Assembly: GCF_013337185.1 (NCBI RefSeq)
Contig: NZ_SWDE01000001.1
Location: 1,302,001-1,366,000, forward strand
Source: Serratia proteamaculans
Lineage (GTDB): Bacteria; Pseudomonadota; Gammaproteobacteria; Enterobacterales; Enterobacteriaceae
Direction: 5' to 3'
Length of the DNA stretch: 64,000 nucleotides
The notes beneath the pieces were generated by a model. It made no database searches. It saw nothing but the letters and a program-made list of their open reading frames with translations, and was not told the origin of the DNA. The position numbers were made by a program, and so were the translations under genes. This document shows, piece after piece, positions 32,373 through 41,885 of the stretch. The first letter of the stretch is position 1. Every line of letters starts with the position of its first letter.

Positions 32373-33299
32373 TTAACGCGACCGGTGATAAACCATCGCC
32401 AACTGGCCCGCAATTTCGGCGGTATTCACCAATACTGCCGCATTGGCCATGGCCGAACGCCCCTGGGTTGCCTGCTCGACCGCTTTCATAATGAATTTGG
32501 TTACCTGGCTGCCAGTCACGCTTTCGGCGGCCGCGTCCTCGATGGCGGCCTGGATCGCTGCCTGAACGTCACGGCTGTCAATCGCATCCTCCGGTTTGGT
32601 CGGGGCTGCCACCACCATCGCCGCACTGCCCGGTAATGCGCGGTTAATATCAATCGCCTGGGCAATCTCCTCCAGGCTGTCTAGCCGTTGCGGACTGCGA
32701 TAACCGCTACTGCAGCAATAGAAGGCCGGGAAATCGTCCGCCTGATAGGTCACCACGGGAACGCACTGGGTTTCCAGAAACTCCAGCGTACGCCCGATAT
32801 CGAGGATATTTTTGGCACCTGCGCACACCACGGTCACGTTAGTGCGGGTAAATTGGATCAAATCGGAAGAGATATCCATGCTGTCCTCTCCTCCGCGATG
32901 CACGCCGCCAATACCCGCAGAGGCAAAGAAACGAATGCCGGCCAGTTCGGCCAGCATCAGCGACGACGCCACCGTGGTGGCCCCCATGCCTTTTTGCGCC
33001 AACACAAAAGGCAAATTGTTGCTGGATACTTTCGCGATGCCGGGCGTGGTAGCGAAACGTTCGATCTGCTCGCGATTCATTCCCACCAAAATTTCGCCAT
33101 CGCAAATGCCAATGGTCGCAGGAACCGCGCCGCTGCGGCGTACTGCCGCTTCCACCGCCAGCGCCGTCTCCACATTGGCAGGATAGTTCAGCCCGTGGGT
33201 AATGACGTTTGATTCCAGCGCAACCACCGCGCGGTGGCTTTCCAGAGCGGCCTTCACTTCAGGATGAATAACTAAAGGCAGTAAATTAGCGTGCATCAT
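32373..33299 (-). CDS. psuG: PsuG-family pseudouridine-5'-phosphate glycosidase, likely C-nucleoside synthase (IndA/MinB/OzmB-like)
   Basis: 308-residue member of the 'indigoidine synthase A' / PsuG family. PsuG cleaves pseudouridine 5'-phosphate reversibly to uracil and ribose 5-phosphate; in the oxazinomycin pathway OzmB uses the same chemistry forward to make the C-glycosidic bond. Visible motifs: E29 in ALESNVITHGLNYPANVETA, ASAGIGGVHRGG near 127-137, and the Schiff-base lysine K163 in CAGAKNILDIGRTLEFLET. The ATG at 33299 overlaps the NRPS TGA (ATGA), so it is co-translated with the indigoidine-type synthetase. That coupling argues for joining ribose 5-phosphate to the aminopyridinedione rather than housekeeping pseudouridine salvage. 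Synthesis direction is inference. Confidence 0.9.
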   Translation of the reverse strand: MMHANLLPLVIHPEVKAALESHRAVVALESNVITHGLNYPANVETALAVEAAVRRSGAVPATIGICDGEILVGMNREQIERFATTPGIAKVSSNNLPFVLAQKGMGATTVASSLMLAELAGIRFFASAGIGGVHRGGEDSMDISSDLIQFTRTNVTVVCAGAKNILDIGRTLEFLETQCVPVVTYQADDFPAFYCCSSGYRSPQRLDSLEEIAQAIDINRALPGSAAMVVAAPTKPEDAIDSRDVQAAIQAAIEDAAAESVTGSQVTKFIMKAVEQATQGRSAMANAAVLVNTAEIAGQLAMVYHRSR

Positions 33300-36200
33300 G
33301 ACTCACTTATCATATTGACGGAAACAGAGGGAAACAGCGCCGCTTGCAGTTGCGCGACACCTTCAGGCTGCAGCAATTGGTAATGGTCGACCGCCAGTTG
33401 GATCACCCGTGGCGGATTAACCTGCAGAGCCGGTGAGTTTTCAAGTTGGGAATAATGGTCGCCGGCCGCTTTAATGACGGTTATCGGCGCCCGAACCTGG
33501 CGTTGCTGCAATTCATCGAAGTTATAGCCGAAGGCATAGGTTTGCTTGACGATCTCAATGATCCGCTCCACCAGCTCCACCTGAAGCTGTGGGAAACAGC
33601 GGCAAATAAAACGCACAAAGTCCCCCTCTTCACGGCACTCTGCCAGACAGCGCTCAAGCAAGGGCCCCTCCACCTGGCGGGCAAAAACGGAAAATAAAAT
33701 CGCCACAAACACCGGGTTGGTAAAACTGACCTGTTGGTTACCCTCTTGCTCTCGGTCAAATTGCGTTTTTGGCGAGCCGGGAGCAATCAGATACAGCGCC
33801 TCCACTTCCTGGCCTTCAGCCTCCAACTGGTAGGCAGCTTCGAAAGCTACGCGTGCGCCGAACGAGTATCCCCACAAGGTATAGGGCCCGTGGGGCTGCA
33901 AGCGTCGGATTTGCACGATATCGGCCGCCGCCATCTGCTGGATGGACTCCAGTGGCAGTTCCCCTTCGTTAATGCCCAGTGCTTGCACGCCATAAAAGCC
34001 ACGCGCCTGGCTCAGGCTCTCTCCCAGCGCTTTCAGACTCAGCGGGTAGCCTCCCAGTCCTGGCCAGCAAAAAATCGCCGGCGCCTGCTGTCGATTAAAG
34101 GGCACCAGGCGCGACAGCTGTGGCGCGAGATAGGCATTGCGTTCTATCCAGTCGGCCAAAGCAACGATGCTTGGCGTTTGGAACAGGATCTGCATCGGCA
34201 ATTTAATATCGAGCGCTTTGTTTACCTGGTTGATAAACATCACTGCGGTGAGTGAGTTCCCCCCGCTTTCAAAGAAATCATCGTCCGCAGAGACCCTTTC
34301 CCACTTCATGACCCGGCACCAGATTTCGGCCAAGCGCTGTTGCAATTCGCCCTCTGGAGCCAACAGCGGCTTTTCGGTATTCAGTTGGCAAGCATACAGA
34401 CGATTAAGCGTTTGTTGGTCGACCTTACCGTTGGCCATCAGCGGCAGCTTGTCCATGACCAGCACACGGTTGGGGATCATGTATTGTGGCAACTGCGCGG
34501 CTAGATCGGCTTTCAGCATTTCAGTTGGCCCTTGCATATGCACCCGGTCCTCATCCATGCCGTCATGACTCAGCTGCGACGGGCTGAGCGGGCCGCCGAT
34601 ACAGAAATAACAGCTCTGCATCGGTAACCCGTGGCGGGTCAACAGCGCCCGCATCGCCTTTGCGGCAGGCAAGTCGTGCCCGCTTTTCGAGCTATAGCCG
34701 GCCGACATCATCCCCAGCCCCAACGGATTGGCCTGCAGGCGATGCAGCGCACGCCCCAGCATAATGTAATGCCCCTGAGCATCGGCATGGTTGTTTACCA
34801 GCATGATGCCAAAGCCCGCACGCTGATAGACCTGCTGATTGATGGCGATAACGTGATGGCGTGCCAGGATCTCCTCATCCATAAAATGCAGCGATCCCTG
34901 GCGATAGTGGTACAGCCCAGCAGACATATCGGCGACGCCCTGCGCATGCACCTGGACAAAAAATTCTGCATGCTCGACAACGGCCTCCCTATTGGCTGGC
35001 TGAAGGCGATAATCACCAAAATAATAGTCAGTTGCGGCTCCGTCATACCACTGCGGCAATGCCTCCGGTTTGGCACCGGTGATGACCTGCAAGCCATATT
35101 CCGGCAGCAGTTCATCGAACAGCCCCAACATATGACCCGCCTCCATCTCCAAAACTTCTTGAATATTGTTCTGATAAACCTGATCGATAGCCGCGCGTTT
35201 GCCGATAAAGTGGATTTTCAGGCTCGCCGTTGCCTGTTCCTGCAGTTCGCCTATGCGGTACAGACGGTGGTTTACGGGGTGGTAATAATAGATCCCCGCC
35301 GGCCAGCCAAACATGCGGTGAAGTTCGAGGTACATCTGAACCGAATACAGCGCCCCCGGTGATGCGTAGGCGTATTTGGGCAACAAACGTTTTTCACTGG
35401 CGAACTGGCCAAAGTTACGCAGCAGCGCGCCAAAATCCTCCGCCGACAGCGCCTGCAGCTCACTCGCTAATACGGCGCGCGGGCTACGCCCCAGGATTGA
35501 CAATAATTGCGCCTCGGTGACCCGCGTCGTCCCTTCAAAGAAACGGTAACTCTTGCGGCTGAAAGCCCGATAGCTTTGCTGAGCGGTAGCCTGTGCACCG
35601 GCAAGCGCGATCGCGGGCAATGCCCGGCACTCGTCCTCGCTGCGGCACCCCGCATTGGACAGCTGCGCCTTGACCTGTTGCCTGCTGGCCTTGGACTGAT
35701 GATGCTCACCGTGAACCCCCTGATCCATCAACACCGCATGCTGCGAGTCCAACTCGACGCAGGCGATCAGGTTTTGATAATGGGTTCGCTCATCCTCATT
35801 GACCATCACCGCCGCCCTTTTCACCCAGAGGTGACGCTCAATGGCCAGGCGAATTTCATCGAGTTCGATACGGTAACCGCGCAGCTTAATCTGGTTATCT
35901 GCCCGGCCGGAAAAGTGATAGCTGCCGAGGCTATCCCGGTAAACCACATCGCCGGTGCGATACATACGCGCATGTTCTGCCGCAGTGGTAAATGGATTCG
36001 TCAGAAATCGTTCAGCCGTCAACTCGGGACGCTGCAAATAGCCATTGGCCACCTGCACGCCGGAAATGTACAACTCGCCTTTTTCACCCTCGGCCACCGG
36101 CTGACGGTGCGCATCAAGCACATAAAACTGGGTATCATCCACCGGTTGGCCTATCGAAACGGCGTCCGGCGACTGTGCCAGCCCATCTTTCTCAACCTCA

Positions 36201-37132
36201 TGCACCGAGGCATTGATGGTGCATTCCGTTGGACCATACAGGTTGACCAGGCTGGCCTGCGGCAGACACTGAAAGAACTGCCGCGCCAGGTTGCGAGTCA
36301 ATATCTCACCGCCACAAAAGACCTGCGTTAACGCCTGGCAATCCTGTAACAGCGGCTGCTCGACCAGCGCCTGCAGCAGCGTCGGGACGCATTGCAGGCT
36401 GGTGATTTGATGATGCAGCAAGGTCATCACCATCATATCCGGATCGCGGTAGCAATCCTTCGGGGCCATCACCAGCGAACATCCCATCGCCGGTGCCAGG
36501 ATCTCCCACTGCGCGGCATCAAAACTCATGGGCGTTTTCTGCAAAATTTTGCTGTGTGCACCAAAAGCAAAACGACCGGTCAGGTAATGCATATGACGGG
36601 AAATATTAGGGTAACTGACCATTACGCCTTTCGGTTTGCCCGAACTGCCTGAGGTGTAAATGACATAGGCCAGCCGCGCGGTATCGCTGGCATCAGCAAT
36701 GTCAAAAGCCGCTTCGGGCAAATTAGAAAGATAAGGAATATCATTGTCGGTAATAACCGTGACATCAGGCCCGATCAGCGTTTGCAATTTTTCTTTGAGA
36801 TGATATTGGCAAAAAATAACTTTTACCGCTGAGTCGGCAATCATATAACGCAGCCGCTCATCGGGATATTCTGGCGCCAAAGGTAAATAAGCATAGCCGC
36901 TGGCCAAAATCCCCCAGGCGCCGCTGACCAGAGTAGTAGAAGGCTCGCAGAATAAACCGATACAAACGCTGTCTGTCCTAACCCGCTGCCGCAAACAGGA
37001 AGAAATACTGAAAACATGGTGGCAGAAGTCGCGATAATTCAGTACGCCGTCCGCGTCCTGCACCGCAATGGCTTCGGGTTGTCGGCTGTAGTGTTGAGCC
37101 AACTGTGCAAATAGTCCCGCCGAAATATCCAT
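33296..37132 (-). CDS. indC: Indigoidine-synthetase-like NRPS, A-Ox-T-TE (IndC/BpsA/MinA family)
   Basis: 1,278-residue single-module synthetase. The A domain (about 10-445) has A3 YTSGSSGKPKG at 159-169, A5 NLYGPTE at 297-303, A7 YRTGD at 391-395 and A8 GRADNQIKLRGYRIELDEIR at 409-428. A nitroreductase/SagB-like oxidase domain (about 530-860) is inserted before the A10 lysine (NGKVD, 901-905). The carrier serine is S960 in DFFESGGNSLTAV, and the thioesterase serine is S1090 in GYSFGAR with H1250 in DHYQLL. Aligned to PheA, the pocket reads D205-A206-W209-Q247-F272-G274-L298-I306-N307, which I recall as glutamine-type. The product would be the oxidised, cyclised glutamine that dimerises to blue indigoidine or feeds C-nucleoside synthesis. 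Confidence 0.95.
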   Translation of the reverse strand: MDISAGLFAQLAQHYSRQPEAIAVQDADGVLNYRDFCHHVFSISSCLRQRVRTDSVCIGLFCEPSTTLVSGAWGILASGYAYLPLAPEYPDERLRYMIADSAVKVIFCQYHLKEKLQTLIGPDVTVITDNDIPYLSNLPEAAFDIADASDTARLAYVIYTSGSSGKPKGVMVSYPNISRHMHYLTGRFAFGAHSKILQKTPMSFDAAQWEILAPAMGCSLVMAPKDCYRDPDMMVMTLLHHQITSLQCVPTLLQALVEQPLLQDCQALTQVFCGGEILTRNLARQFFQCLPQASLVNLYGPTECTINASVHEVEKDGLAQSPDAVSIGQPVDDTQFYVLDAHRQPVAEGEKGELYISGVQVANGYLQRPELTAERFLTNPFTTAAEHARMYRTGDVVYRDSLGSYHFSGRADNQIKLRGYRIELDEIRLAIERHLWVKRAAVMVNEDERTHYQNLIACVELDSQHAVLMDQGVHGEHHQSKASRQQVKAQLSNAGCRSEDECRALPAIALAGAQATAQQSYRAFSRKSYRFFEGTTRVTEAQLLSILGRSPRAVLASELQALSAEDFGALLRNFGQFASEKRLLPKYAYASPGALYSVQMYLELHRMFGWPAGIYYYHPVNHRLYRIGELQEQATASLKIHFIGKRAAIDQVYQNNIQEVLEMEAGHMLGLFDELLPEYGLQVITGAKPEALPQWYDGAATDYYFGDYRLQPANREAVVEHAEFFVQVHAQGVADMSAGLYHYRQGSLHFMDEEILARHHVIAINQQVYQRAGFGIMLVNNHADAQGHYIMLGRALHRLQANPLGLGMMSAGYSSKSGHDLPAAKAMRALLTRHGLPMQSCYFCIGGPLSPSQLSHDGMDEDRVHMQGPTEMLKADLAAQLPQYMIPNRVLVMDKLPLMANGKVDQQTLNRLYACQLNTEKPLLAPEGELQQRLAEIWCRVMKWERVSADDDFFESGGNSLTAVMFINQVNKALDIKLPMQILFQTPSIVALADWIERNAYLAPQLSRLVPFNRQQAPAIFCWPGLGGYPLSLKALGESLSQARGFYGVQALGINEGELPLESIQQMAAADIVQIRRLQPHGPYTLWGYSFGARVAFEAAYQLEAEGQEVEALYLIAPGSPKTQFDREQEGNQQVSFTNPVFVAILFSVFARQVEGPLLERCLAECREEGDFVRFICRCFPQLQVELVERIIEIVKQTYAFGYNFDELQQRQVRAPITVIKAAGDHYSQLENSPALQVNPPRVIQLAVDHYQLLQPEGVAQLQAALFPSVSVNMISES

Positions 37133-37525
37133 TTTTACTCTATGAACGCCTCACATTTGCAAGGATCCCGGTAGGGTTGTAATGACGACGTGCTTTAGCA
37201 ACACTTCCCATTATGGGGAAATGCCCGACCTTATCCCATCAGGGTATATCTGTCGTTGTCATTACTGTCGTTATCCATACAGCTTTTCGGCACTCACCCT
37301 CTTTCAGAGTTAATAGTTGCCAGTTGGCAGATGACAACTGACGTCATTTTTTTCGCAGGCAGGAGCCTGAGCGACTTTTGCCCATATCCTTTGGATCTAT
37401 TTATTTGTCATGGCGCTAATTGCGTTATCAGTGTAAGCATGACGATATTTATCGCCCCTAAACTTTCACCATTAAGAAATAGCGCTGTCTGCGGCCCTGA
37501 ATAACCAGTAATTCTTATGCTGTTG
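37133..37525. promoter_or_regulatory. Intergenic region upstream of the NRPS gene
   Basis: 393 bp between the HAD gene and the NRPS, both on the minus strand. It holds an inverted repeat TTCCC-ATTATG-GGGAA (37205-37220) whose centre reads CATAAT on the minus strand, a possible -10 about 75 bp before the NRPS ATG. A second CCC/GGG pair lies at 37235-37244. I found no good -35, so the promoter may need an activator. A plus-strand open frame of 82 codons here (TTG start, no ribosome site) looks spurious. Confidence 0.4.
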
Positions 37526-38218
37526 CTAGCCTGCTACGCGACTAGCGTCTCTGTGACGGCACCAGTCAACCACGGCGGCAAAAGAGCTTACAATAATGCT
37601 GGGCTCGGCCGCGGCCAGTACCTGCCGATTTTGGATACCATAATCTACCGCGATCACCGGGCAGCCAACCTGGTGAGCCATCAATATGTCGTGCGTAGTA
37701 TCCCCCACCATCACCGCTTCCTCCGCCCTGACCTGATAGTGCTCCAGGATTTTGTTGCCAGACTCCGGCGCCGGTTTTTTCTCCGTTACCTGGTCGGCGC
37801 AAACCACCACATCAAACAACGGGGCAATGCCCGCCGCCGCCAATAGCGAATTTGCACTGCGTGCGAACTTATTGGTGGTCACCGCCAGATGAAAACCCGC
37901 TCCTTTCAACTGTTGCAGGCCCGCGGCGACGCCAGGAAATAACAGCGATGCCGCCATCGGTAAAATCAGCGTCTGAAACTGCCGTTGATACTCCGCCACA
38001 CAGTCAGTTACTGCCCGTCCATCAGCCTCCTGAGAGAGCAATTGGGCAAAGGCACGCTCCAACGGCAGGCCTATCGTTTCACGGATCAGTTCATCGTCTA
38101 CCGGCTGGGGTAATTGCAGTTGTTGAAAGGTGGCACGAAAGGCGGACACTATCGCTCTCGCCGTATCAAACAGGGTGCCGTCAAGGTCAAACATAATGAC
38201 CCGGAGTTCAGGTTTCAT
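37526..38218 (-). CDS. HAD-family phosphatase (IndB/MinC-N-like)
   Basis: 230-residue haloacid-dehalogenase phosphatase of the Gph/PsuM type. I start at the ATG at 38218, 8 nt after AAGG; a GTG three codons earlier overlaps that site. Motif I is FDLDGTLFDT (D11, D13), motif II TTNK at 114-117, motif III K148 in EKKPAPE, and motif IV GDTTHD at 172-177; a four-helix cap lies between about 20 and 85. In the min and ind clusters the equivalent enzyme dephosphorylates the C-nucleoside 5'-phosphate, which finishes the product and also detoxifies it in the host. The substrate is inferred from context. Confidence 0.9.
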   Translation of the reverse strand: MKPELRVIMFDLDGTLFDTARAIVSAFRATFQQLQLPQPVDDELIRETIGLPLERAFAQLLSQEADGRAVTDCVAEYQRQFQTLILPMAASLLFPGVAAGLQQLKGAGFHLAVTTNKFARSANSLLAAAGIAPLFDVVVCADQVTEKKPAPESGNKILEHYQVRAEEAVMVGDTTHDILMAHQVGCPVIAVDYGIQNRQVLAAAEPSIIVSSFAAVVDWCRHRDASRVAG

Positions 38219-38238
38219 CGTTGTCACCTTCTTGAGGG

Positions 38239-38463
38239 TCAGTAATTAGGGACTTTAATTAAGCAGTCTTTTTTATTTTCTATTTCCGGGCGATAAACCT
38301 GCGTCTGCCAGTCATCGGCAGACACCTGCTCTATTGCAATGGAAACGACGCCGGCATCGCACTGTAATGCTTGCGTAATAACCCGCGTGATCTCCTCTGC
38401 CAATGCATTCTTGGCGCTTTGGGAAAGTACCTGCGGAAAGTGCTGAATTTTCACGTGCGGCAT
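38239..38463 (-). CDS. 4-oxalocrotonate tautomerase-family protein (PptA-like)
   Basis: 74-residue small tautomerase beginning MPHVKIQHFPQVLSQSAKNA. After Met removal the catalytic Pro1 is exposed, followed by the beta-alpha-beta fold with SIAIEQVSADDW. Closest to E. coli PptA/YdcE. Stop is 20 bp before the HAD start and the ATG is 23 bp after upp, so it is clearly in the same operon. A role on keto/enol tautomers of the aminopyridinedione is plausible but inferred; the gene is not part of the minimal minimycin set as I remember it. Confidence 0.88.
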   Translation of the reverse strand: MPHVKIQHFPQVLSQSAKNALAEEITRVITQALQCDAGVVSIAIEQVSADDWQTQVYRPEIENKKDCLIKVPNY

Positions 38464-38486
38464 GTTTTTTCCTTTGTAGAATTTAA

Positions 38487-39137
38487 TTACCCGTGACGGG
38501 TACCAAAATAGCGGTCACCGAAGTCGCCGATCCCCGGTTTCATAAAGGCCTGTTCCGAGAGTCCCTGTTCAATGGACGACGTCACCAGTTGGATGGCCGG
38601 GAAGCGGGTAAACAAACGATCGACCCCTACCGGCGATGCCAATACATTAACAACATAGATATTTTCCACCGGCACGCCTTGCTCCAACAGCGTTTCGATT
38701 GCCATGATCAGCGAACCGCCCGTGGCCAGCATAGGTTCAAATAGCAACACGGCGCGTTCGGCAATATCGTCGGGGAAATGAGAGTAGAAATATTTTGGCA
38801 GCTTGCTTTGCGGATTGCGTTGAATGAGTATTTTACCTATCGGCTGGCCGCTAAACATTCTGCGGTACTCGCCCTCAAAACTTTCCCCGGCGCGGATCAC
38901 CGAAACACCGCAAATACCTCGGGCAAGTTTTAGCCCCGTGTAGGTTTCGCCAATGGGCGTAATCACCTCATGTTTTTCATACGGCAGTAATGCGGCGGCC
39001 TGTACCAACAGTTGGCGCAGCAGTTGATCGCTATAATATTCAAAGCAGGCATGCTCCGCCTGTTTATTACGGATTTGAGTGTGCAAATAAGTAAGATAAT
39101 GATTTGGGGCCAGAAGATGAATATTAGAAAGTTTCAT
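38487..39137 (-). CDS. upp: Uracil phosphoribosyltransferase, Fur1-like type (MinD-like self-resistance candidate)
   Basis: 216-residue UPRT: uracil + PRPP to UMP. The PRPP loop is EPMLATGGS at 134-142 and the uracil-binding C-terminus is PGIGDFGDRYFGT at 201-213. The N-terminal part (SNIHLLAPNHYLTYLHTQIR) and CGVSVIRAGESFEGEYR are closer to eukaryotic-style Fur1/UPRT than to the 208-residue housekeeping enterobacterial Upp, which starts MKIVEVKHPL. It is therefore an extra, acquired paralog. In the minimycin cluster a UPRT (MinD) protects the producer; the same role is likely here. Confidence 0.93.
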   Translation of the reverse strand: MKLSNIHLLAPNHYLTYLHTQIRNKQAEHACFEYYSDQLLRQLLVQAAALLPYEKHEVITPIGETYTGLKLARGICGVSVIRAGESFEGEYRRMFSGQPIGKILIQRNPQSKLPKYFYSHFPDDIAERAVLLFEPMLATGGSLIMAIETLLEQGVPVENIYVVNVLASPVGVDRLFTRFPAIQLVTSSIEQGLSEQAFMKPGIGDFGDRYFGTRHG

Positions 39138-39219
39138 AACCTTGTTCTTTTAACAGAGTAATAGATACATAAGCACCGCCCTTCACCGGGTTGGGTGAAA
39201 GGAAGGCTTATATCGATTA

Positions 39220-39248
39220 AAAATAAAAGTCAGTCTGTAACTTATCAA
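39220..39248 (-). promoter_or_regulatory. Possible promoter upstream of upp
   Basis: TTGATA (39243-39248) and TATTTT (39220-39225) on the minus strand with a 17-bp spacer, in the 127-bp gap between the Nudix gene and upp. A CCTTTCACC / GGTGAAGG-type hairpin (about 39180-39202) follows in the would-be leader. Weak evidence. Confidence 0.3.
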
Positions 39249-39264
39249 TATCAACAGGTAATAA

Positions 39265-39681
39265 TTAGTCGATAAGATGCATTTCCTTTAGCTCGTTCAA
39301 TACTTTTGCTGCAACGGCAGAACAACGATGGCTGTCCGCATGGTTCAACCAGGATATTTCTTCTATTTCGGCACTGGCTTTTACTTCGCCACTAAAGTCG
39401 GCAGAAAAACAATGTATCTTCACCATCACGCCTGCAGGTTTACCGTCAGCCTGCCCATGGAATTCGCCCAGTGAAATAATACTGTCATTAATTAAATCGA
39501 CGGAAAGTTCTTCTTTAATTTCTCGGGTCAGAGCTTCTCGATCGTTCTCTCCTGTTTCCCGTTTGCCGCCGGGAATATAAAACGTCGTCTTGTTATACGA
39601 ACGAGCCATCAGGACTTTTTTATCCTGGATATAAACCCAGCCTAATTTATCAATGAACTTTGCAGCAGGATTGTTATTCAC
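39265..39681 (-). CDS. Nudix hydrolase
   Basis: 138-residue Nudix protein with a GTG start preceded by AGAGG. The Nudix box runs from G39 through E45 to REIKEEL at 53-59; the usual glycine near its end is serine (S60). It lies 12 bp after the DUF4243 stop on the same strand, so co-translation is likely. Hydrolysis of a nucleoside di/triphosphate form of the C-nucleoside, preventing incorporation into RNA, would fit, but the substrate cannot be read. AT-rich compared with the flanking core genes. Confidence 0.9.
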   Translation of the reverse strand: MNNNPAAKFIDKLGWVYIQDKKVLMARSYNKTTFYIPGGKRETGENDREALTREIKEELSVDLINDSIISLGEFHGQADGKPAGVMVKIHCFSADFSGEVKASAEIEEISWLNHADSHRCSAVAAKVLNELKEMHLID

Positions 39682-39693
39682 TCTGTTGACCTC

Positions 39694-40875
39694 TCACTCC
39701 AGATTAGGTGCATGTTCAAACGACGGCGGCAATTGGGGAGTTGTGGTGAACTGATGTGCGGTGGCGCGATACAAGGTGCATTTGGTACGCAACCACAGCA
39801 GTTTCATCACATAAACCAGTTTTGGGTTATGCTCCTCTTCCTCCTCCACGGCTCGCGCGGTGAGCTGCCGCCACTCGCGTTCCCATAGCGGATCGCGGAT
39901 ATCGTCGTATTCATCGGCATAAAGATGCTGGAGAGATTGTAACTTATCGGGGTGAGCCAAACTATCGGTAGCAAACAACATGCACTGCATCCCGACCCAG
40001 TAGCTGCAAAGCACCTCGCGCGCCTCTTGCTCAGGTAAATGCCCGGCGATTTGTTCCATGGCCAACAATGACGTCAACAAGTGCAGCAGCAGAAAATTCC
40101 CCGGAGTGGTCAGGTAGATTAATGTGACCGTCTGATAGAGCTGCGCCCAGGCCAGCTCAAGGCTTTGCTGCGTCAGCCACTCCGGCTGGCGATAAATTTC
40201 CTCATGCCCCTGATGCAACACACAGGCAATACGATATTGCAGACCGGAGCGCTGTAATTCAGGATGGATACGCGCGGTGATTTCCTCAGCCGGCGTTTCA
40301 ATCACTGCGCTCTGCCAGGCCAACATCTCTTCCCGCCGTTGCTGCCAGCAGTTCGCCAAACGTAGCACCGAGTCGAAGGCCGTTGGCTCCCCAAGATGCG
40401 GGTCGTAGCGGGAGCGCCGGTGATGGCAGGGAACGTACGAATAGGCCATATAGGCCAGGCCTTCGACGATCATTCCTTCATGCTCGGCCAGCAATGCCCA
40501 GCCCAGATGAATGGTGCCGTGCGTCAACGAGCCCACCCAACCGTCGATCAGCTCCGGCAGGTAGCTGGCAAGCACCTGTTCACGTCCCTGCTCACGAATC
40601 TGCTGCCGGAAAAAGTCGCAATAGGCACTGAAGCTGCTGCGCTTGCCCAGCAGGCTACGCCAGTTTGCGTCATCAATCTGATACCTGGCTTTTCTTGGCG
40701 GTTCCAACCCCATGCCGTAAGGCGTCATGGCGGCATAGCGGCGGTAATACCAAAGGATACGTTCCTCCGGCACGCCCAACCCAGCCAAGGCGATAACGGC
40801 ATGTTTAACATGATTGGAGAGATGCCCGTTAAACTCTATGTCGTACCGCTGATCATCTAACAGTTCATTTATCAT
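39694..40875 (-). CDS. DUF4243 / questin-oxidase-like oxygenase (OzmD/MinC-C-like)
   Basis: 393 residues from the ATG at 40875, which overlaps the 3' end of the upstream transporter gene by 11 bp. Family landmarks: an N-terminal FNGHLSNHVKHAVIALAGLG (H22), then LIDGWVGSLTHGTIHLGWAL with H119 and H123, FLLLHLLTSL (H265) and EEHNPKLVYVM (H349), a set of conserved histidines that probably bind non-heme iron. In oxazinomycin biosynthesis OzmD, a DUF4243 enzyme, inserts oxygen into the pyridine C-nucleoside and rearranges it to the 1,3-oxazine with loss of cyanide. Annotation pipelines may call this gene hypothetical. I assign the family from pattern recognition; the reaction is inferred from cluster context. 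Confidence 0.82.
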   Translation of the reverse strand: MINELLDDQRYDIEFNGHLSNHVKHAVIALAGLGVPEERILWYYRRYAAMTPYGMGLEPPRKARYQIDDANWRSLLGKRSSFSAYCDFFRQQIREQGREQVLASYLPELIDGWVGSLTHGTIHLGWALLAEHEGMIVEGLAYMAYSYVPCHHRRSRYDPHLGEPTAFDSVLRLANCWQQRREEMLAWQSAVIETPAEEITARIHPELQRSGLQYRIACVLHQGHEEIYRQPEWLTQQSLELAWAQLYQTVTLIYLTTPGNFLLLHLLTSLLAMEQIAGHLPEQEAREVLCSYWVGMQCMLFATDSLAHPDKLQSLQHLYADEYDDIRDPLWEREWRQLTARAVEEEEEHNPKLVYVMKLLWLRTKCTLYRATAHQFTTTPQLPPSFEHAPNLE

Positions 40876-41308
40876 GATGATATTTCTCGAGTGTCGATAG
40901 GATGATCCCAATGGTGATCAGCGCCACTCCCAATAGCTGAATGAGATGACTGCGCCCACCTTGATTAATCACATCAAACAGCACGGCCGAGAACATCTGA
41001 CCGCCAATAATTAATACCGAAGTATTCAGCGCCCCCATTTTGGGGAACACGTAGCTGCTGGTTGCCACGAACAGTGCGCCACACCCGCCACCAACCCAGG
41101 CGTATGCCGGAACCTGCGCCCAATGAAACTGCCCCAGCTGTTGCCAGTAAAACGCCGCCACCAGCAGGGTCAGAAATAAGAAACCCACCGAGTGATTCCA
41201 TAAGGAGGTGCGGAAGGCGCCAATAGAGGCGCTCAGCTGGCCATTAATCACCCTGGCCGAGCTAATAATCATCCCGTTTAACAGGGCAATAAAAATAAGC
41301 GTATCCAC
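40865..41308 (-). CDS. DUF606/DMT small membrane transporter, second of a pair
   Basis: 147-residue membrane protein with about five hydrophobic segments, of the YdcZ-type DUF606 family within the drug/metabolite transporter superfamily. Its last codons overlap the DUF4243 start. The upstream gene (41320-41778) is a homologous half; such pairs commonly act as heteromers. Export of the C-nucleoside or pigment precursor is the likely role, taking the place of MinT in the Streptomyces cluster. The substrate is inferred. Confidence 0.85.
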   Translation of the reverse strand: MDTLIFIALLNGMIISSARVINGQLSASIGAFRTSLWNHSVGFLFLTLLVAAFYWQQLGQFHWAQVPAYAWVGGGCGALFVATSSYVFPKMGALNTSVLIIGGQMFSAVLFDVINQGGRSHLIQLLGVALITIGIILSTLEKYHHDK

Positions 41309-41319
41309 GTCATCGCTCC

Positions 41320-41778
41320 CTAAAGGCTATAGATAATAAGAAAACAGCCGGAAATAATCAGAGCAGAGATATAAAGGCTACTTCGTGTCATTTTTCGTTT
41401 TTGTGAGCCAAATAAACCAAAGTGATCTGAGACAAAACCGAATAATAATTGCCCAACCAAACCAAGAGAAATTGTGCTGGAGAGAGGGATGCCACCGTTA
41501 ATTGCCATCGTCGCCAAAATAACGGTAAAGGCTCCGGGAATGCCCCCAAGATAGAGCCACCAGGATCGTTTCTGTGGTTTATTATTCGATTCCTGAGGAT
41601 TTTTTTTAACAAATAACAAAATAAGCAACAATGAACTCAACATACCAATACCGTGAGCCACCCACGAGGCGACGACAGAAGAGGTTTGTTCAGACAGAGC
41701 GCTGTTGGCTTGAAACATTAAGGTAAGAAAAAAACCGCTAAGAATAGCGATAAAAATATTTTTAAAATTGCCAATCAT
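41320..41778 (-). CDS. DUF606/DMT small membrane transporter, first of a pair
   Basis: 152 residues from the ATG at 41778 (MIGNFKNIFIAILSGFFLTL), which has AGG 9 nt upstream; an ATG six codons earlier lacks a ribosome site. About five hydrophobic segments with the family pattern of small polar loops (ISLGLVGQLLFGFVSDHFGLFG). Markedly AT-rich. First gene of the operon, about 100 nt downstream of a good sigma70 promoter and 11 bp before its partner gene. Confidence 0.85.
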   Translation of the reverse strand: MIGNFKNIFIAILSGFFLTLMFQANSALSEQTSSVVASWVAHGIGMLSSLLLILLFVKKNPQESNNKPQKRSWWLYLGGIPGAFTVILATMAINGGIPLSSTISLGLVGQLLFGFVSDHFGLFGSQKRKMTRSSLYISALIISGCFLIIYSL

Positions 41779-41885
41779 AATGTGTAACCTGCGCATTAAA
41801 AAACCACTAAGGTGATTTTACAATCCTTGTACAGCAAAGCTTAAGAACGATACCAAGAAGCTTTTACTCATATAATCCGCAAAAA

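Follow-up and report, generated by a model that had tools for sequence, protein, structure and literature searches.

Gene content of the locus

A 64,000-nucleotide stretch of the Serratia proteamaculans genome (contig NZ_SWDE01000001.1, positions 1,302,001 to 1,366,000; hereafter the window) carries nine genes which, judging from their sequences, are highly likely to form a functional cluster that makes minimycin (oxazinomycin), a C-nucleoside antibiotic resembling uridine, or a closely similar compound. All nine open reading frames are intact and lie on the minus strand at 32373-41796, in the number, place and orientation given by the first-pass annotation of this DNA. From 5' to 3' they encode two small membrane proteins (YdcZ1 and YdcZ2), a DUF4243 enzyme, a Nudix hydrolase, a uracil phosphoribosyltransferase (UPRT), a tautomerase and a HAD phosphatase and, after a gap of 393 bp, a nonribosomal peptide synthetase (NRPS) and a C-glycosidase.

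The two membrane proteins, YdcZ1 (41320..41796; PF04657, E value 2e-27) and YdcZ2 (40865..41308; 3.1e-26), belong to the DMT_YdcZ family. The upstream end of the cluster had been set at 41778, where an in-frame ATG is indeed present as an alternative start of YdcZ1, but the longest frame begins at 41796. The third gene (39694..40875) matches Questin_oxidase (PF14027, 3.9e-38), which we take to be the family called DUF4243 in papers; with its start at ATG 40875, it shares 11 bases with YdcZ2. It is followed by the Nudix hydrolase (39265..39681; PF00293 (NUDIX), 7.2e-11), the UPRT (38487..39137; PF14681 (UPRTase), 4.6e-64), a 4-oxalocrotonate tautomerase (4-OT)-type protein of 74 amino acids (38239..38463; PF01361, 8.8e-7, with PptA above the NCBIfam cut-off) and the HAD phosphatase (37526..38227; PF13419 (HAD_2), 1.1e-42; alternative start ATG 38218). 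The indigoidine-type NRPS with the domain order A-Ox-T-TE (33296..37132; Pfam AMP-binding, PP-binding and Thioesterase) and the glycosidase of the PsuG/Indigoidine_A family (32373..33299; PF04227 (Indigoidine_A), 1.6e-109) overlap by ATGA at 33299-33296, which agrees with the coupling of these two genes proposed earlier. Pfam or NCBIfam places each gene in the family that had been named for it, with the Ox domain of the NRPS left without a family match. The cluster is flanked by a major facilitator superfamily (MFS) gene, earlier called ycaD and assigned here to the family level only, and by dmsD, whose product exceeds the NCBIfam equivalog cut-off. Scans for promoters and terminators were uninformative, as promoter-like sites numbered 7 (9.5 expected) and terminator-like sites 14 (11.9 expected).

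Correspondence with the Streptomyces min cluster

Minimycin has been studied so far mainly in Streptomyces. It has also been found in a Pseudomonas (PMC8724604). In the same account, MinA is an NRPS with A, Ox, T, TE and Tau domains, MinB a C-glycosynthase, MinC a HAD plus DUF4243 protein, MinD a UPRT and MinT a transporter; the compound is made by MinA, MinB and MinC, and protection is provided by MinCN, MinD and MinT (PMC8724604). The locus L048 of Streptomyces hygroscopicus ATCC 21589 has this published architecture: NRPS and tautomerase in one frame, HAD and DUF4243 in another, and then the UPRT. The window proteins align with those of L048 over 91-100%, at identities of 48% for the NRPS (over 98%), 43% for the tautomerase, 63% for the glycosidase, 53% for the HAD phosphatase and 51% for the UPRT. 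The 393-residue DUF4243 protein, on whose family membership the first-pass annotation had staked its reading, is 50% identical to its L048 counterpart over 99%. From the gene set, which matches function by function, and from this homology, the claim that the locus has the same core as the Streptomyces min pathway holds. Going by sequence, the window NRPS is of the MinA type, with Ox placed by alignment only, the glycosidase is a YeiN-like C-glycosynthase of the MinB type, the UPRT is the counterpart of MinD, and the HAD and DUF4243 parts of MinC are present as two separate genes. The Tau domain of MinA corresponds to the separate 74-residue tautomerase, a correspondence that had not been stated before.

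The window and the S. hygroscopicus cluster share an NRPS, a tautomerase, a PsuG-type glycosidase, HAD, DUF4243, UPRT and candidate transporter genes; they differ in that the window has tautomerase, HAD and DUF4243 as separate genes, an added Nudix gene and another gene order. The transporters differ as well. Two DMT-type proteins (DMT_YdcZ) are present in the window as had been claimed, but the gene upstream of L048 belongs to the MFS family (PF07690, 7.4e-25). This gene is a candidate for MinT, and the family difference is one between the YdcZ pair and the L048 gene, the MinT sequence itself not having been seen. YdcZ1 and YdcZ2 are the probable exporter pair of the cluster.

The A domain of the NRPS has the code DAWQFGLINK at what we take to be the code positions, presumably meaning glutamine; this same code is found in 61 of 86 NRPSs, with both pigment-type and minimycin-type enzymes among them, and the serines of the T and TE domains are invariant in all 86. 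The glycosidase aligns with the pseudouridine-5'-phosphate glycosidase 4gij (5.4e-76) and keeps the PsuG motifs ALES, DIS-DL and CAGAK together with a late Asn, to which catalytic roles are ascribed. For the UPRT, the best PDB match is 1upf (2e-54), which we take to be a Toxoplasma protein, and the nearest UPRT type is presumably eukaryotic; the host genome has a separate bacterial-type Upp elsewhere, which the cluster UPRT does not resemble. Among solved relatives, the DUF4243 profile matches the hydroquinone dioxygenase PaD (5.3e-13), AflY (2e-8) and questin oxidase (1.2e-4). Its residues H22, H119, H123 and K352 are kept in 39 of 39 alignment rows, and H265 and H349 in 38, the remaining row having an X. 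The protein is predicted to be a non-heme iron oxygenase that would convert a C-nucleotide intermediate into an oxazine. A literature search on the questin oxidase BTG13 found no paper.

We propose a route by analogy with the Streptomyces min enzymes, whose reactions would occur here in the same way. The NRPS would activate and oxidize L-glutamine and release the cyclised base, and the tautomerase would set the tautomer of this base. The PsuG-type enzyme, run in reverse, would link the base through a C-C bond to ribose-5-phosphate, the DUF4243 enzyme would turn the ring into an oxazine, the HAD phosphatase would remove the 5'-phosphate, and the YdcZ pair would export the nucleoside. The UPRT would raise the pool of uridine monophosphate as a defence by competition, and the Nudix hydrolase would probably destroy minimycin triphosphate.

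Distribution, conservation and alternative readings

Scanning genomes with an alignment of four DUF4243 sequences yielded 53 loci, which together with the Serratia loci, the G046 locus and controls made 98 loci having NRPS or DUF4243. L029 (the same place as L020) and L023 and L024 (fragments only) were left out from the architecture comparison onward, the DUF4243 part of L081 is too small to be counted, L230 (Photorhabdus G1002) stands outside the 98-locus table, and L074 (one stop) was left out of alignment A2. NRPS and DUF4243 occur together at 49 of the 98 loci, and here HAD is found at 48, glycosidase and tautomerase at 47 each, UPRT at 41, both YdcZ genes at 25 and Nudix at 9. Hosts of the set include Photorhabdus, Zooshikella, the cyanobacterium Brasilonema, Streptomyces, Pseudonocardia, Nonomuraea, Nocardia and Williamsia. 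Among 398 Pseudomonadota genomes, PF14027 was found in only 5 at E 0.001, and 4 of these exceeded the cut-off. Since this family is rare and the same families are found together again and again across several phyla, in changing order, their grouping is not a matter of chance. DUF4243 without NRPS occurs at 9 of the 98 loci, in Nitrospinia and related metagenome-assembled genomes (MAGs) and in some short contigs or decayed loci. At one of them, in a Nitrospinia MAG (L061:5474-11203), DUF4243 lies next to genes for a nucleoside triphosphate (NTP) transferase, a helix-turn-helix protein, an iron-containing alcohol dehydrogenase and a CDP-alcohol phosphatidyltransferase, which may represent a phosphonate or lipid head-group pathway.

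Because most of the 49 loci had been found with DUF4243 as bait, a control selected by NRPS only was needed. The 40 NRPS loci without DUF4243, pigment-type loci from Streptomyces, Leisingera, Rhizobium and seven Enterobacterales, share with the window the same NRPS type and, at 28 loci, the tautomerase, but they have HAD and YdcZ at none and glycosidase at only 9; UPRT is found at 8. When Streptomyces was searched by NRPS alone, 29 of 199 genomes gave 32 matches, L048 being one of them. The other 31 loci have DUF4243 with HAD in 1 case, glycosidase with UPRT only in 6, and neither pair in 24 (one with a UPRT fragment), so this NRPS does not bring the set with it as a rule. These control counts make DUF4243 with HAD the discriminating pair: by gene content, it is this pair that marks the minimycin type, and UPRT accompanies C-glycosidation more widely. 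The first-pass annotation had read both DUF4243 and UPRT as pointing beyond indigoidine. The first of these pointers stands, whereas UPRT had to be rejected as a marker, as all 8 UPRT loci among the 40 carry the glycosidase. In the window, DUF4243 and HAD both accompany the NRPS.

In other collections searched by NRPS, 8 of 394 Enterobacterales genomes matched, and neither DUF4243 nor HAD was found in the flanks of the seven loci other than the window's, two of these flanks being short; in the Pseudomonadota sample, 1 of 396 genomes matched, which is the window's own. Among plasmids, the NRPS was matched in 36 records and DUF4243 in 14, ten of the latter being distant Rhizobium sequences (33-34% over 37%). 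Viral contigs searched by NRPS gave no match, nor did E. coli genomes searched with the cluster DNA at near identity. An exception to the pairing of DUF4243 with HAD is L190, on the S. clavuligerus plasmid pCLA1, which has the NRPS, the tautomerase and a 42% identical DUF4243, and where HAD, glycosidase and UPRT were not found in the stretch that was read.

A second enterobacterial lineage (Brenneria, Lonsdalea, Tenebrionibacter, LSJC7, an Erwinia MAG and G046) shares YdcZ, glycosidase, HAD, DUF4243 and NRPS with the window but differs in gene order, and UPRT and Nudix are unmatched in the stretches covered; in Lonsdalea, only half of the glycosidase is matched. At the G046 locus (L022:4378-6656), a gene of the phosphoenolpyruvate-mutase family and an aldehyde dehydrogenase gene lie between the YdcZ pair and the tautomerase, and spacing suggests the same two-gene insertion in L057 and L058.

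Within Serratia, the intact cluster occurs at the same site in 3 of 30 genomes, a total that is itself inferred. The nine proteins of one of these, G001, are 90-99% identical to those of the window. For the nine genes, the ratio of nonsynonymous to synonymous substitution (dN/dS) lies at 0.03-0.20 in the comparison with G001 and at 0.00-0.19 in that with G022, values given without a significance test. Of 26 Serratia loci with the MFS gene, the glycosidase is adjacent in 3, dmsD lies within 1.5 kb in 6, and neither is in the stretch in 17; the closeness of dmsD to the MFS gene indicates that six other Serratia lack the insertion. In two reduced-genome Serratia, a DUF4243-Nudix junction persists in decayed form, with 69-75% identity at the DNA level (L023:9733-10022 and L024:9973-10262), the L023 copy lying, by eye, beside a phoB-like gene. 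In both the DUF4243 and the NRPS trees, the Serratia rows are nearest to Photorhabdus. As for the flanks, the MFS gene of G022 matches in two frames (L021:670-1813) and dmsC of G001 in two pieces (L020:7212-7981), so these neighbours of the cluster may be broken.

Taking presence, intactness, homology, recurrent co-occurrence and low dN/dS together, the product is very probably minimycin or a very close analogue. An intact but silent cluster, with no present antibiotic role, would be compatible with this assignment. Its sparse occurrence (3 of 30 Serratia) and the decayed junctions in the two reduced genomes speak for silence, but dN/dS of 0.00-0.20 across nine genes in three Serratia genomes speaks against it, and we consider it unlikely. 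Another possibility, which we regard as improbable, is a different C-nucleoside, made from the same glutamine-derived C-nucleotide with another final ring or a further modification. Glycosidase and UPRT do occur without DUF4243 and HAD at 8 of the 40 control loci, which means that the core can feed other products, and the window proteins are just 43-63% identical to those of S. hygroscopicus. One of these 8 loci, on a Streptomyces lavendulae plasmid (L186:2573-11786), has NRPS, UPRT, EamA, tautomerase, glycosidase, alkene reductase and phosphoribosyl pyrophosphate synthase genes and no DUF4243, and is possibly a cluster for a different C-nucleoside. The window, however, has DUF4243 and HAD with no added tailoring oxidoreductase, and every gene but Nudix has a published functional counterpart. 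That the locus makes only the pigment indigoidine, the remaining genes being passengers, is very improbable: the NRPS belongs to the indigoidine type, its A-domain code is common to pigment-type NRPSs, and a foreign promoter before indC activates indigoidine in Photorhabdus laumondii (PMC10983751), but HAD is absent from all 40 NRPS loci without DUF4243 and the glycosidase present at just 9, dN/dS does not exceed 0.20 in any of the nine genes, and the set recurs in several phyla.

Some points weigh against assigning the window to minimycin. L048, with which the proteins were compared, comes from another strain than the published cluster (MK122964, JCM 4712) and was recognised by its architecture. 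For the Ox domain, Pfam gives no match, and its placement comes from aligning the NRPS over its full length with others of the type. The A-domain code was rejected as a product marker, as it is the same with and without DUF4243. The alignment of the DUF4243 protein to solved relatives is significant solely for residues 18-178, so that its C-terminal His and Lys candidate ligands, though conserved, lack a structural placement; such residues, with a carboxylated lysine among them, would presumably bind iron. In the NRPS tree, the window NRPS does not group with that of S. hygroscopicus, and full clusters are scattered among pigment-type NRPSs. Since DUF4243-bearing NRPSs are dispersed in this way, NRPS phylogeny lends no support to the product and was rejected as evidence for it. 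The first NRPS tree, built from DUF4243-selected loci and seven others, was biased by that selection; L042 and L053 were left out of the second.

The Nudix gene and the Photorhabdus locus

A hidden Markov model (HMM) made from nine Nudix proteins matches, at E 1e-6, those nine and no other in 99 loci; this search covered this kind of Nudix protein only. The nine loci, three from Serratia, two from Photorhabdus, three from Streptomyces and L053, all have DUF4243, and remnants of the gene are present at two further Photorhabdus loci. An apparent Nudix gene without DUF4243 in L182 (31% over 57%) came from a loose coverage rule and was rejected, the Nudix HMM being silent there. In L053, a minimycin-like locus of an uncultured gammaproteobacterium where UPRT was not found, the Nudix domain is fused to a YjjG-type pyrimidine 5'-nucleotidase (L053:6849-8042), the fusion partner passing the curated cut-offs for pyrimidine 5'-nucleotidase (224.6 against 183) and YjjG (182.8 against 159.9). 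The window Nudix protein itself matches named families and structures only weakly, pyrimidine NTP and CTP pyrophosphohydrolases and MutT among them, and none of the NCBIfam matches reaches its curated cut-off.

RNA polymerase accepts oxazinomycin triphosphate well as a substrate (PMC6821320). Together with the link to DUF4243 and the nucleotidase fusion, this suggests that the Nudix protein, a predicted pyrophosphohydrolase, acts in removing toxic minimycin triphosphate, which is probably its role. The monophosphate so generated could then be dephosphorylated by HAD and exported as nucleoside by the YdcZ pair. Against a protective role, just 9 of the 49 clusters carry the gene, some Photorhabdus have a broken copy, and its dN/dS values (0.20 and 0.17) are among the highest of the nine genes; given this rarity, breakage and high dN/dS, Nudix would be at most accessory.

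A full-length NRPS of this type (E 1e-150 or better) is present in 6 of 12 Photorhabdus genomes, and a full-length DUF4243 in exactly these 6, one each per genome and 0.4-1.0 kb apart. As the two genes are adjacent in the same six genomes, the locus known for indigoidine in Photorhabdus appears by its gene content to be of the minimycin type. All six loci (L230 from G1002, L030, L031, L032, L033 and L080) carry the glycosidase, HAD, tautomerase, UPRT and the YdcZ pair. Compared with the window, their NRPS is 51-52% and their DUF4243 55-57% identical, and the order is UPRT, tautomerase, HAD, YdcZ, YdcZ, DUF4243, (Nudix), NRPS, IndA. The Nudix gene is intact at the P. asymbiotica and P. thracensis loci and disrupted at two others, and it was not found at the remaining two. 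In PMC10983751, indC (plu2186) of P. laumondii TTO1 is called an indigoidine NRPS gene and is silent until its promoter is replaced; antiSMASH results in two other papers already label Photorhabdus clusters as minimycin (PMC12542766, PMC11194217). We put forward tentatively, at chances a little short of even, the combined proposal that Nudix is an undescribed layer of self-protection hydrolysing minimycin triphosphate and that the classical Photorhabdus indigoidine locus is a minimycin-type antibiotic locus. Neither the Nudix link nor the Photorhabdus reading was met in the literature examined, in which no search was aimed at the Nudix link alone. No paper on a Serratia minimycin cluster was among the matches listed for Serratia with minimycin, oxazinomycin or indigoidine, most subscription literature being outside that search; within it, the names minimycin and Serratia came together in one text, a review of quorum sensing. 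The core of the cluster is of a known kind; what is new is the Nudix link, the reading of Photorhabdus and the YdcZ pair in place of an MFS gene.

Our analysis places a complete and conserved minimycin-type cluster in an enterobacterium, and the NRPS-only control separates C-nucleoside clusters from pigment clusters by DUF4243 with HAD, not by UPRT. The idea of self-resistance through Nudix is now directly testable. The Photorhabdus locus labelled as indigoidine, whose NRPS has been activated by a foreign promoter, merits re-examination for an antibiotic nucleoside.

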